The notes beneath the pieces are model-generated. The model made no database searches. It was given only the letters and a program-made list of their open reading frames with translations, and was not told the DNA's origin. Positions 11,067 to 28,132 of a stretch of 39,662 nt of DNA are shown here, piece after piece; within the stretch, counting starts at the first letter, position 1, and each line of letters begins with the position of its first letter. A program made the translations under genes and the position numbers. Source of the stretch: a virus; the IMG/VR virus record IMGVR_UViG_3300025525_000034, positions 1-39,662 of that record, one strand, 5' to 3'.

Positions 11067-11512
11067 CCGAAGCCCGCAAAATCTACCGCGCATGCTGCAA
11101 AGCCCTGGGCCTGGACGACGACACCCGCCGCGCCATGAACGTCAAAATCACCGGCAAGGCCAGCAGCGCCGATTTCACCGCTGACGACTGGCGCCGGATG
11201 ATTGCCCACGTCACCCGCGCCACCAACGCCCCGGCGCGCCAGCCCAACGAATGGGCCTGGGTCGACAGCGCCTCCGAAGACCGGCAACCCATGCTGCGCA
11301 AGCTGATCATGCTCGCCAAGGCCGCCGGCATCGCCCGTGGCAAACAGATCGCCTACATCGAAGGCATCGCCAAACAGGCCGCCGGGATCAAGGGCGGCAG
11401 CGTCGCCAAACCCTTGCGCCTGTGCGACAGCGCCGAACTGCGCGTGCTGGTGCAAGCGCTCAGCGTCTACAACGCCCGGCGCAGAAAGGCCAGCCAAGAG
11501 GCAACCCAATGA
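11063..11512 (+). CDS. gemA: GemA / gp16 family regulatory protein
   Basis: This 149-residue protein matches the Mu gp16 (GemA) family. It begins ARKIYRACCKALGLDDDTRR with the typical NVKITGKASSADFTADDWRR, then MLRKLIMLAKAAGIARGKQI and LRLCDSAELRVLVQALSVYN. In Mu, GemA affects host gene expression and DNA supercoiling. It precedes the Mor-type activator here, as in Mu. The overlap with the next gene (ATGA type) implies coupled translation. Confidence 0.88.
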   Translation: MTEARKIYRACCKALGLDDDTRRAMNVKITGKASSADFTADDWRRMIAHVTRATNAPARQPNEWAWVDSASEDRQPMLRKLIMLAKAAGIARGKQIAYIEGIAKQAAGIKGGSVAKPLRLCDSAELRVLVQALSVYNARRRKASQEATQ

Positions 11513-11928
11513 AACTCAACCTCGACCGCCTGCCTGCCTCGATGCGGCTGATCGTCGAGCTGATCGGCCTGCCCGCCGTGCTGCGCCTGGTCGAAGAATA
11601 CGGCGGTACCACCATCTGGCCGGCGAATACCGGCGCCAGCGGCGCGCACCTGGCCGACGTGCTGGGCGAAGCCGCCGCCGCCGCGCTGTGCGCGCACTTC
11701 CGCGAACCCATCTACATTCCGCTGTGCCGCGCCGCGCTGATCGCCGTCGAGCACGACGCCATCCGCACTGAAGGCGACGAGCTCGAACGCAATGGCCTCA
11801 GCGCCCGCGAAGCCGTCGCCCAACTGGCGCGCAAATACCGGCACAGCGACCGCTACATCTGGACCATACGCAAACGCGCCAACCACGGCGGCGAGGTCGC
11901 CGAAACCAAGCAGGGCAGTTTGTTTTGA
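11509..11928 (+). CDS. mor: Mor/C-family transcription activator
   Basis: This 139-residue protein matches Mor/C: an N-terminal dimerisation part (ASMRLIVELIGLPAVLRLVE, EYGGTTIWPA) and a C-terminal HTH (GLSAREAVAQLARKYRHSDR, YIWTIRKR). Mor and C bind dyad sites just upstream of weak promoters and recruit RNA polymerase for middle and late transcription. Only one family member is seen in this window, so it may do both jobs. Its likely targets are the dyad-bearing elements at 13391, 22436 and 27670. Mu Mor has 129 residues. Confidence 0.88.
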   Translation: MKLNLDRLPASMRLIVELIGLPAVLRLVEEYGGTTIWPANTGASGAHLADVLGEAAAAALCAHFREPIYIPLCRAALIAVEHDAIRTEGDELERNGLSAREAVAQLARKYRHSDRYIWTIRKRANHGGEVAETKQGSLF

Positions 11929-12273: not shown

Positions 12274-12444
12274 CAGGTGCTGAAAACACCTACGTAGCGG
12301 TTCCCGCGCCCGAAGTTGCGGTTTTTTTACGTCCATTGGTTGTGATCAATGGCCGGGTGTGGACGAATACAAGACCCCGCAAGGGGAAATAAGTCCGCCG
12401 CCTACGTACGGTTTTCAGCACCTGGCCGCCCCGTCCTTACGGGG
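12274..12444 (+). ncRNA. Long inverted-repeat leader upstream of rha, C4-antisense-RNA-like
   Basis: CAGGTGCTGAAAAC at 12274-12287 and its exact complement GTTTTCAGCACCTG at 12411-12424 close a ~150-base structure. Inside them TACGTA (12291-12296 and 12403-12408) and GCGG/CCGC extend the pairing. Two perfect hairpins lie within: CCATTG..CAATGG (12333-12352) and CCCC-GCAA-GGGG (12375-12386). A third, CCCCGT-CCTT-ACGGGG (12429-12444), follows just before the ribosome site GGAAAGGA of the Rha gene. Phages such as P1/P7 place the C4 antisense RNA ahead of antirepressor operons, with flanking complementary segments. The resemblance is in layout; a covariance search is needed to confirm it. Confidence 0.5.
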
Positions 12445-13283: not shown

Positions 13284-13339
13284 GCCGCTGCAACAGCGGC
13301 TTTCCGCCCCGGCCCGCCCTGCGCGTCGGGGCTTTTTTT
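13284..13339 (+). terminator. Double-hairpin rho-independent terminator of the early/middle region
   Basis: GCCGCTG-CAA-CAGCGGC (13284-13300) is followed by GCCCCG (13306-13311) pairing with CGGGGC (13327-13332) and then seven T (13333-13339). This is a strong intrinsic terminator that separates the early/middle operon from the lysis and late genes. Confidence 0.8.
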
Positions 13340-13392
13340 CACCCTTCACCCTTCACCCTTCACCCTTCACCCTTCACCCTTCACCCTTCACC
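13338..13392 (+). repeat. TTCACCC heptamer tandem repeat
   Basis: Seven perfect copies of TTCACCC (13338-13386) and a partial eighth (TTCACC, 13387-13392) run from the U-tract of the terminator to the start of the 55-nt element ahead of the amidase gene. The array is in noncoding DNA. Its copy number should be prone to slippage and would change the distance between terminator and late promoter element. Confidence 0.9.
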
Positions 13393-13445
13393 GCTGACCC
13401 CCATCAGCATCCCCGCATCGCGCGCGCGTGGCGAAACTGGCCGCC
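13391..13445 (+). promoter_or_regulatory. 55-nt late-operon head element, copy 1 (lysis module)
   Basis: It starts CCGCTGACCCCCATCAG, with dyad GCTGA..TCAGC. A C-rich part and GCATCGCGCGCGCG follow, and it ends GAAACTGGCCGCC directly at ATG 13446. No Shine-Dalgarno sequence is visible. The same start motif stands exactly 55 bases before the ATG at 22491 and 27725. Copy 1 is the most diverged of the three and lacks the large hairpin upstream. It corresponds in place to the Mu lysis promoter. Confidence 0.6.
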
Positions 13446-20266: not shown

Positions 20267-20337
20267 TCGTCATTCCCGCGAATGCGGGAATCCAGGATGC
20301 GACCCGAGCTGGATTCCCGCCTGCGCGGGAATGACGA
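20267..20337. repeat. dRS3/NEMIS-like nested palindromic repeat
   Basis: The outer arms TCGTCATTCCCGCG (20267-20280) and CGCGGGAATGACGA (20324-20337) are exact complements. The inner arms GCGGGAATCCAG (20284-20295) and CTGGATTCCCGC (20309-20320) are too. Each half contains ATTCCC-N8-GGGAAT or a near match, the signature of neisserial dRS3 and related repeats of beta- and gammaproteobacteria. It fills the gap between gp29 and gp30. Confidence 0.88.
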
Positions 20338-22325: not shown

Positions 22326-22435
22326 CCGCTGCACCAGTGCTCGGCACGCCGGTTCCCTAAGCGCTGAAGCGCAAAGGGAACCGCTGCACCAGTGCTCGGC
22401 ACGCCGGTTCCCTAAGCGCTGAAGCGCAAAGGGAA
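22326..22435 (+). repeat. Two identical 55-bp tandem repeats, each with a large hairpin
   Basis: Copies 22326-22380 and 22381-22435 are identical. Each contains GTGC-TCG-GCAC. Each also contains a long stem: CGGTTCCC pairs with GGGAACCG (its last bases shared with the next unit), inner stem GCGC-TGAA-GCGC. A diverged single relative stands at 27611-27669, ahead of the tail module. The array leads directly into the 55-nt head element at 22436. Confidence 0.85.
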
Positions 22436-22490
22436 CCGCTGAACCCCTTCAGACTGCCCCCCGTCATCCCGCTGCCAGAAACTGGCAGCC
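22436..22490 (+). promoter_or_regulatory. 55-nt late-operon head element, copy 2 (capsid module)
   Basis: It starts CCGCTGAACCCCTTCAG, with dyad CTGAA-CCCC-TTCAG. ACTGCCCCCCGTC follows, then the perfect hairpin CTGCCAG-AAA-CTGGCAG, ending CC directly before ATG 22491. It has no Shine-Dalgarno sequence. The place corresponds to the Mu late promoter ahead of gene I. The dyad centre lies about 45 bases before the ATG, the distance at which Mor/C proteins sit from a transcription start. Confidence 0.6.
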
Positions 22491-23651
22491 ATGGCTACCA
22501 AAACTCTCCCCCGCATCCATTGCTTCAAGCCTGGCCGGCATACCGCCATGTCGGGCGCTGTGCTGAGCTTTTCCGAATCCGATCTGGCGGCCTCGGCCGC
22601 AGCCTATGACCCGGCGTTGTTCCGCGCGCCGATCGTCGTCGGCCATCCCACGCTGGATGCGCCGGCCTACGGCTGGATCGACAGCGCGGCATCCGAAGCG
22701 GATGGCCTGTACGTCAACGCGGCGGATGTCGATGCCGAGTTCGCCGACATGGTCCGCGAGCAGCGTTTCCCGAATCGCTCCGCCTCGTTCTTCTCGCCCG
22801 GCCATCCGCGCAATCCGGTACCGGGCGTTTACTACCTCAAGCATGTCGGCTTTCTCGGTGCCGTGCCGCCGGCTGTGCGTGGCCTGAAGCCGATCCAGTT
22901 CGCTGACGACGATGCCGAATGCATCACCATCGAATTCGCTGATGCGCCGGCCTGGCCGGTGGCGCGCCTGTTTCGCGGCCTGCGCGACTGGCTGATCGGC
23001 AATCACGATCTGGCCACCGCCGATTCGGTGTTGCCCGCCTACCAGATCGAAGAACTTGAAAACGCCGCGCGCCGGGTTGACGAAGTTGAAACCGCCGCGC
23101 CGGCTCCCGCTTTTGCCGCCCCCCTCACCCAAGGAGACTCCATGTCACCCGAAGAAAAGGCGCGTCTTGACGCGCTCGAAGCTGATAACGCCCGGCTCAA
23201 GGCCGAGGCCGAGGCCCTCAAAACCCAGACCGCCGAGTTTGCCGACCGCGAAGCGGCGCTGCGCGCCAAGGAAGAAGCCGCGCGCCAAGCCGAGATTGCC
23301 GACTTTGCCGATGGCCTGATCAAGGCCGGCCGTGTGCTGCCGCGCGACAAGGCGGGCCTGGTGGCTTACCTGGCTGGTGCGGATGACGCCGGCGCCATCG
23401 AATTCGCCGACGGCGGGACCACCGTGAAGAAGCCCGCCGACGAGTGGCTGCGCAGCTTCCTGATCGCGCTGCCGGTGCAGGTTGACTTCGCCGAACGCGG
23501 CGCCGGAGATTCCCGCGATGACGCCAACTTTGCCGCTGCTTCCGACCCCGTCGCCGTCGCCGCCAAAGCCGTCGAGTTCCAGGAAGCCGAAGCCCGCGCC
23601 GGCCGTACCGTCAACATCGCTCAGGCCGTGGCGCACGTCCGGGGCGTCTGA
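22491..23651 (+). CDS. I: Mu I-like head maturation protease, with scaffold as C-terminal part
   Basis: This 386-residue protein matches Mu-like prophage protease I: a catalytic N-terminal ~200 residues (FRAPIVVGHPTLDAPAYGWI, MVREQRFPNRSASFF, VYYLKHVGFLGAVPPAVRGL). A coiled-coil scaffold region starts near residue 218. The protease trims scaffold during capsid assembly. The gene begins exactly at the end of the 55-nt head element. An internal start for the scaffold alone is listed separately. Confidence 0.92.
   Translation: MATKTLPRIHCFKPGRHTAMSGAVLSFSESDLAASAAAYDPALFRAPIVVGHPTLDAPAYGWIDSAASEADGLYVNAADVDAEFADMVREQRFPNRSASFFSPGHPRNPVPGVYYLKHVGFLGAVPPAVRGLKPIQFADDDAECITIEFADAPAWPVARLFRGLRDWLIGNHDLATADSVLPAYQIEELENAARRVDEVETAAPAPAFAAPLTQGDSMSPEEKARLDALEADNARLKAEAEALKTQTAEFADREAALRAKEEAARQAEIADFADGLIKAGRVLPRDKAGLVAYLAGADDAGAIEFADGGTTVKKPADEWLRSFLIALPVQVDFAERGAGDSRDDANFAAASDPVAVAAKAVEFQEAEARAGRTVNIAQAVAHVRGV
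23142..23651 (+). CDS. Z: Internal in-frame scaffold protein (Mu Z-like)
   Basis: ATG 23142, within gene I and in the same frame, is preceded by a perfect AAGGAG six bases upstream, whereas the I start itself has none. Translation from it gives 169 residues: a coiled coil (ARLDALEADNARLKAEAEAL, REAALRAKEEAARQAEIADF) and a C-terminal capsid-binding part. Mu produces scaffold gpZ from an internal start in I in the same way. The number of scaffold copies would thus be set independently of the protease. Confidence 0.82.
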   Translation: MSPEEKARLDALEADNARLKAEAEALKTQTAEFADREAALRAKEEAARQAEIADFADGLIKAGRVLPRDKAGLVAYLAGADDAGAIEFADGGTTVKKPADEWLRSFLIALPVQVDFAERGAGDSRDDANFAAASDPVAVAAKAVEFQEAEARAGRTVNIAQAVAHVRGV

Positions 23652-25236: not shown

Positions 25237-25306
25237 AAACCCGCCCCCTGAAACCCGCCCCCTGAAACCCGCCCACTGAAACCTGCCCCCTGAACCTTGC
25301 CCGAGG
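25237..25306 (+). repeat. 14-bp tandem repeat AAACCCGCCCCCTG
   Basis: Units at 25237-25250 and 25251-25264 are identical. Units 25265-25278 and 25279-25292 have one change each, and 25293-25306 is a decayed fifth unit. The array spans the gap between the capsid gene and the next gene. CAGGGGGC just upstream (25216-25223) can pair with any unit. Confidence 0.85.
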
Positions 25307-25312
25307 AAACCC

Positions 25313-27578: not shown

Positions 27579-27614
27579 GCAGGATGGGTTGAGCGCCAGC
27601 GAAACCCATGCTGC
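27579..27614. repeat. REP-like palindrome GCAGGATGGGTT..AACCCATGCTGC
   Basis: GCAG-G-ATGGGTT (27579-27590) pairs with AACCCAT-G-CTGC (27603-27614), with one G/G mismatch. The sequence GGATGGGTT-GAGCG..GCG-AAACCCAT is of a type found repeatedly between genes in many proteobacterial chromosomes. It follows the gp36 stop and merges into the hairpin domain ahead of the third head element. Confidence 0.7.
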
Positions 27615-27669
27615 ACCCGTTCTCGGTGCGCCGGGTGACTAAGCCGCCAAAAGACGGCGGCCAAGTCAC
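27611..27669 (+). promoter_or_regulatory. Hairpin domain related to the 22326/22381 repeats
   Basis: It shares CTGCACC.GT.CTCGG..CGCCGG and the TAAG loop start with the units at 22326 and 22381. The main stem is CGGGTGAC/GTCACCCG (the last bases run into the head element). The inner stem is GCCGCC/GGCGGC. At 22381 the corresponding stems are CGGTTCCC/GGGAACCG and GCGC/GCGC. Five pairs of the 8-bp stem have changed on both sides with pairing kept, which points to a conserved RNA or cruciform structure. Confidence 0.65.
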
Positions 27670-27724
27670 CCGCTGAACCGCTTCAGTCTGCCCCCCATCG
27701 CGCGCGCGCGGCACCATCGCCGCC
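27670..27724 (+). promoter_or_regulatory. 55-nt late-operon head element, copy 3 (tail module)
   Basis: It starts CCGCTGAACCGCTTCAG, with dyad CTGAA-CCGC-TTCAG. TCTGCCCCCCATC and an alternating GC run follow, and it ends ACCATCGCCGCC directly before ATG 27725. It has no Shine-Dalgarno sequence. It matches copy 2 in 28 of the first 30 positions or so and copy 1 in outline, with the same 55-base distance to the ATG. Confidence 0.6.
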
Positions 27725-28132
27725 ATGCTGCTCACGCCTATCGTCACTCGCCTTACCGCGCAATGCCCGTCGCTGACCCAGGTGCTTTATGCCCTGTCCG
27801 GCGCGGTGCCGGCCACTTACCCGGCGGCCTACGTGCTGCCGCTGTCCGATAGCGCCGCCGCCAACGTCTTGCTCGGCGCGCACAGCCAGATCATCACCAG
27901 CCGCTTCGCCATCGAGATCATGCTCAAGCACGCCGGCCAGGCGGCGAGCGGCGGCCCGGCCGCCGAGGCGCTGGAAGCGGTGCGTACCGAGGTTCTGGCC
28001 GCGCTGAAGGGCTGGCAACCCACCCCGGAGCACGACCCCATCGCCTATGTCGGCGGCCGCCTGATTGATTTCCAGGCCGGCATGGCGACCTGGCGCGAAG
28101 AGTTTTCCACCCGCCACGACAGCCGAACCTAG
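27725..28132 (+). CDS. gp37-like tail terminator protein (DUF1834 type)
   Basis: This 135-residue protein (VTRLTAQCPSLTQVLYALSG, AAYVLPLSDSAAANVLLGAH, ITSRFAIEIMLKHAG, PIAYVGGRLIDFQAGMATWR) matches the Mu-like gp37 family in length, order and pattern. Such proteins cap the tail tube at the head-proximal end. It is the first gene of the tail module and starts at the end of the third head element. Confidence 0.82.
   Translation: MLLTPIVTRLTAQCPSLTQVLYALSGAVPATYPAAYVLPLSDSAAANVLLGAHSQIITSRFAIEIMLKHAGQAASGGPAAEALEAVRTEVLAALKGWQPTPEHDPIAYVGGRLIDFQAGMATWREEFSTRHDSRT

Follow-up and report, generated by a model that had tools for sequence, protein, structure and literature searches.

The window, a 39.7-kb virus record, belongs to a B3-like (Mu-like) transposable phage, whose capsid protein is 45–52% identical to those of Curvibacter phage TJ1, Pseudomonas phage Bise and B3. 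Three of its genes bear on the locus, all on the + strand, as are the operators, −10-like hexamers, repeat copies and terminator-like hairpin described below. A Mor-family activator gene (11509..11928; PF08765, E 9e-7; predicted start) follows GemA and encodes a candidate operator-binding protein. A capsid protease/scaffold gene resembling Mu I (22491..23651) and a tail-terminator gene (27725..28132; PF23840) are the first genes behind the second and third of three predicted late operators; the second and third operators, though not the first, each adjoin a palindromic repeat.

The repeat is present in three copies, two in tandem within 22332-22441 and one at 27614-27675. Copy 1 (22332..22386; 55 nt) comprises a CACC..CGC box, an 8-bp stem (CGGTTCCC/GGGAACCG), an inner GCGC hairpin and a terminal CTG. 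Copy 2 (22387..22441) follows in tandem and is identical to it, and copy 3 (27614..27675; 62 nt) has the stem CGGGTGAC/GTCACCCG with the inner pair GCCGCC/GGCGGC. In copies 2 and 3, the terminal CTG is at the same time the left end of the operator. Segments 22326-22380 and 22381-22435 are identical, and 27608-27662 shares 60% identity with both; the two regions fold better than shuffled sequences (z −6.1 and −3.3). An earlier note on this DNA had described a covarying hairpin domain here. Its sequences and coordinates are borne out: CTGCACC..CTCGG..CGCCGG, TAAG and CCGCTGAACC are common to the copies, and the two different stems with their differing inner hairpins are both present. What it had taken for the exit of the hairpin, CCGCTGAACC, belongs instead, as its left half, to a separate operator; this operator is also found without any hairpin, at 13391 before the endolysin gene of the window and at L006, L010, L011 and L015. 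No match at the motif reached the gathering score of any family in Rfam 15; weak matches to miRNA families and neisseria_FSE, below their gathering scores, were dismissed as chance. Literature searches returned no description of this repeat.

The predicted late operators lie at 13394..13407 (CTGACCCCCATCAG; endolysin gene promoter), 22439..22452 (CTGAACCCCTTCAG; a Mor/C-type dyad at the capsid protease/scaffold gene promoter) and 27673..27686 (CTGAACCGCTTCAG; tail-terminator gene promoter). At the first, the palindromic repeat is absent and a perfect 7-bp tandem array, (TTCACCC)n, takes its place (13338-13393), between the lysis operator and an intrinsic-terminator-like hairpin with a T run (13316..13339) upstream of the lysis promoter. 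Their downstream part takes the form of a dyad (CTGAACCNCTTCAG or CTGACCCNNNTCAG) whose spacing to the ATG hardly varies, and a Shine-Dalgarno sequence is absent. In the window, the dyad centre lies 45 bp before the ATG, and a −10-like nAnnnT hexamer places its T 7 nt before it: GAAACT at 13433..13438 (ATG 13446), GAAACT at 22478..22483 (ATG 22491) and CACCAT at 27712..27717 (ATG 27725).

Using capsid-protein alignments, we gathered 80 B3-like loci and read the sequence before the gene-I protease, which gave 54 non-redundant upstreams. The best dyad was centred 42.5–46.5 bp before the ATG in 26 of these 54 (shuffles: mean 1.6, maximum 6 in 200), compared with 11 of 217 other gene starts that served as a control. 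From the dyad centre to the T of the nAnnnT hexamer the distance was 37–38 bp in 22 of 24 cases, and from that T to the ATG 6–8 nt. The dyad sequence differs wholly among phages while its position is kept (GTGAA..TTCAC, GCGGAA..TTCCGC, TGCGGAC..GTCCGCA, TAAAC..GTTTA); this combination of a variable operator and a fixed spacing covers 13446, 22491 and 27725 of the window as well as L076–L155. Two further readings of the region were abandoned: TTCAG.CTGCC as a DUS/uptake sequence, since the dyad varies freely between phages; and CTGAA..TTCAG plus pre-ATG hairpins as a structured 5′ leader, since the dyad-to-T distance is fixed although the linkers are unrelated between phages, and since a TAnnnT-like site at a more upstream position is not general.

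In phage Mu, the Mor binding site is a dyad with its centre at −43.5 (PMC4287176; also PMC4390567), and Pm and the late promoters combine two 5-bp inverted repeats ~44 bp upstream of the start with a −10 at fixed distance and no −35 (PMC4287176, PMC4390567). The predicted window promoters have the same layout, a dyad near −43.5 and a −10 at a fixed distance; their operators precede the endolysin, protease and tail-terminator genes, which is the order of Mu Plys, PI and PP, and a Mor-family gene is present. They differ from Mu in that the operator sequence changes with the phage lineage, and in that the predicted start lies 0–2 nt from the ATG in the absence of a Shine-Dalgarno sequence. From dyad geometry, the Mor-family gene and gene order together, we infer that the window dyads belong to Mor/C-type late promoters, which would start transcription at the ATG or no more than 2 nt away, with the Mor-family protein as the presumptive activator. 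For B3-like phages in general, late operons are predicted to start from Mor/C-type promoters at the start codon and thus to yield near-leaderless late mRNAs without Shine-Dalgarno sequences. Because the promoter start is placed at the ATG, the repeat would lie upstream of the late promoter and not, as previously proposed, in the capsid and tail module leaders. The sequences immediately before 22326 and 27611 showed no terminator-like site, and read-through RNA may include the hairpin at both places. At the related phage locus L031, an intrinsic-terminator-like hairpin with a T run, read by eye, directly precedes the repeat.

Including L031, four further copies in related phages and prophages (L007, L008, L013, L031) keep the hairpin with a changed stem sequence. 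We built a covariance model, R1, from seven copies; the search with it recovered the element interspersed in host chromosomes. R1 matched 22 of 100 genomes from the family of G001 (the genome of L013), some host genomes being MAGs in which contamination is possible, with ~50 copies in G001, 32 in G471 and 28 in G463. Across the class, at a stricter cut-off than in the family search, one of 143 sampled genomes was positive, namely G001 itself. The family, likely that of the hosts of the phage, is betaproteobacterial, and the repeat links the phage to a host clade. With these host matches, the view of a phage-specific element was dropped; it had come from box patterns that returned only phages, the host boxes having diverged. 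Plasmid and phage collections added no convincing copies: two phage records from the human gut matched at 77%, but the model did not confirm them. When 399 genomes of the order were searched with a wide pattern, most matches were due to chance.

Reading and parsing 91 copies showed a double hairpin of 54–78 nt, in which TG is followed by CACC-(CGCAAGG or AGTTCTT)-GGCACGC, an 8-bp stem, TAA, the inner hairpin, CAA, the 3′ stem and CTG. Typical 8-bp stems are CGGATTCG/CGACTCCG and CGGATGCC/GGCATCCG, and the phage copies group with the CGGATGCC type. The phage copy at L031 and a chromosomal copy beside a MurC-like gene (L192) differ at 4 of 63 positions (~94% identity, manual count). Tandem arrays of the repeat abut at CTG.

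Independent copies have compensated stems (CGGAGGCC/GGCCTCCG, CGGATGCC/GGCATCCG and, with one mismatch, CGAACCCC/GGGCTTCG). The six distinct phage stems are 95.8% paired, a level reached by none of 2000 shuffles (mean 76.7%), and 14 host stems are 86.6% paired, likewise matched by none of 2000, in a comparison that leaves the relatedness of the copies uncorrected. This agrees with the earlier proposal that pairing is under selection. Uncompensated stem substitutions in homologues, which had been named as evidence to the contrary, were found in part: in 10 of the 14 host stems, pair 5 consists of T.C or is unpaired in some other way. Pairing is probably selected, but for the repeat itself and across its contexts, which are intergenic, inside REPs and inside genes; because these contexts are so varied, it is difficult to picture one RNA function shared by all of them.

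Both filled and empty sites of the element were found. The host REP GTTGGGCACGCTGCGCTTTGCCCAACCTAC, with 703 uninterrupted matches in G001, is interrupted by the element at three points, GCTG|CGCTTT, TTTG|CCCAAC and, in the other arm, GTG|CCCAAC, always after TG; the latter two share at most TG at both ends. In a sister phage (G005), the capsid protease reads MATAQLP, the inserted SQKKDAEPLSAKAPRASLP and RIHFFRPGR with the frame otherwise intact, where the window reads MATKTLPRIHCFKPGR (MATKTLPRIHCF). In-frame host insertions were seen in genes for RhuM (Pfam E 1e-80), cytochrome D1, TerB/DUF533, NiFe hydrogenase and an FAD-oxidase; the inserts in the RhuM gene (L225 1-669) and the FAD-oxidase gene (L186 3-1937, − strand) comprise one and three tandem units, respectively. 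The repeats within these host genes are 54 or 57 nt long, both multiples of 3. Genome G001 is very rich in GTAG REPs in general (703 matches to GTTGGGC...GCCCAACCTAC, 72 to GTAGGAGCGGAC), some of which lie within prophage late regions.

Among known systems, the repeat resembles the Rickettsia palindromic elements (RPE; Ogata et al. 2000, as cited in PMC2996958 and PMC3733652) in being a short palindromic unit with a conserved hairpin (91 copies), found between genes and in frame within intact, functional protein genes, with frame-preserving length and tandem copies. It differs, in a comparison of features and not of sequence, in its betaproteobacterial hosts, its consensus CACC..CGCCGG..TAAG..CCGCTG, its presence in transposable phages and its abutment to phage operators. 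With REPs and REPINs (GTAG- or CGTC-tagged; PMC3733652, PMC3116915) it shares high copy number, restriction to a clade, palindromy and clustering, and within one genome it can stand next to GTAG REPs as well as nested with them. Unlike them, it is a double hairpin of 54–78 nt that inserts inside GTAG REPs, and it bears no terminal GTAG or CGTC tag, since it starts with CACC after TG and has CCGCTG as its other end. The palindromic coding repeats known as PARCEL (PMC2996958) likewise lie within proteins and have moved horizontally, but these amphipathic membrane-protein repeats of mycoplasmas and others contrast with a repeat that is mostly intergenic and enters soluble enzymes as single in-frame units. 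A MITE of a DDE transposon was rejected, as the ends CACC and CCGCTG are not inverted repeats and two of the three REP insertion points share at most TG. Y1_Tnp genes are present in 6 of 7 hosts, and their neighbourhood is not consistent; only one is clearly near a copy, and that copy lies inside another REP. Mobilisation of an IS200/IS605 or IS110 type, the latter inserting into REPs at a dinucleotide core, is for now just an idea.

We therefore consider it highly probable that the hairpin domain represents one copy of a short mobile palindromic repeat, native to chromosomes of a betaproteobacterial family, which has entered B3-like phages, where it occupies the left half of the late operator with the promoter intact and where its stems covary on behalf of the repeat itself. 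Transposition from chromosome to phage would account for this distribution. The repeat would insert 3′ of TG (often GCTG) and carry its own end, CCGCTG; on landing in the left half of an operator CCGCTG|AACCNCTTCAG, it would recreate CCGCTG|AACC, so that the half-site is restored and the promoter is left intact, presumably making the insertion neutral. A Mor/C-type dimer on the operator, 37–38 bp upstream of the −10-like T with the ATG 6–8 nt further on, could then still activate near-leaderless late mRNAs. The covariation of the stems would mean that the hairpin matters to the repeat, probably for recognition by a mobilising enzyme. The abutment would be exact because the CCGCTG end of the repeat supplies the left half-site of the operator; in 4 of 6 phage cases, the left flank of the insertion also reads CCGCTG.

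The repeat may in addition have acquired a secondary regulatory use. Both insertion points in the window are operators, despite ~155 intergenic CTG sites (from rough gene calls). This bias, which weighs against the preferred reading, exceeds what random insertion predicts unless it stems from shared ancestry, recombination from one operator to another, a target preference or selection, any of which is possible. It is less likely than not that the repeat specifically targets late operators in transposable phages, or is retained there, with its CCGCTG end recreating the half-site, so that late promoters serve as a safe harbour, or the repeat as a recruited regulatory module, in the travel of a host repeat between chromosome and phage. 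A rather unlikely alternative is co-option, in which the host repeat is selected at late operators as promoter-proximal DNA (for supercoiling, insulation of operons or an extra activator contact) or as a barrier or 3′-end stabiliser for the upstream late transcript. Every intergenic phage copy does abut an operator, the repeat is retained in three gene contexts, and CCGCTG is common to the operator and the outer CGG/CCG pairs. However, several operators of the same phages lack the repeat, and some of these hold unrelated GTAG-type palindromes in the same gap: at L047 a GTAG REP with 72 matches in G001, at L011 and L015 other GTAG palindromes. The gap upstream of the operator thus looks like a tolerated landing place anyway.

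The earlier note had suggested an undescribed structured RNA or DNA cruciform linked to phage late operons. In favour of a phage-specific structured RNA, whose pairing would be selected for regulation in the capsid and tail module leaders, are the covarying stems, the stable fold and the position of all three copies before late operons. We now regard an RNA of this kind as very improbable: the same element is a high-copy repeat interspersed in host chromosomes, nested in REPs and inserted in frame into genes, it is missing from further late operators of these phages, its position appears to be upstream of a Mor/C-type promoter, as judged from 54 phages, the L031 copy stands directly behind a terminator-like hairpin, and pair 5 is uncompensated in most host copies. 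Weaker still is the reading that the late promoter depends on an extruded DNA hairpin (cruciform), as with the virion RNA polymerase of phage N4, which would fit a hairpin just upstream of the promoter with pairing kept while the stem sequence varies, but the same genomes have promoters without a hairpin, a phage RNA polymerase gene was not noticed in the window, and the element also occupies unrelated chromosomal and coding places.

With a mobile palindromic repeat as the preferred reading, convincing covariation across intergenic sequences of phages can come from such a repeat rather than from a regulatory RNA. To our knowledge, no mechanism of mobility has been established for RPE-like elements, and this repeat family, whose filled and empty sites span REPs, genes and operators of phages, offers material for its study. 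The window holds further repeats. At 25237-25312, 14-bp tandem repeats (AAACCCGCCCCCTG) directly precede a small gene after the capsid gene, and at 20267-20337, where the portal gene borders on its downstream neighbour, a 29-bp inverted repeat (TCGTCATTCCCGCGAATGCGGGAATCCAG) looks similar to another widespread palindromic repeat. At 12351-12435, before a Rha-like gene, an Rfam sRNA-Xcc1 match (64.4 bits, above the gathering score) lies between the inverted segments ACCTACGTA and CAGCACCT.
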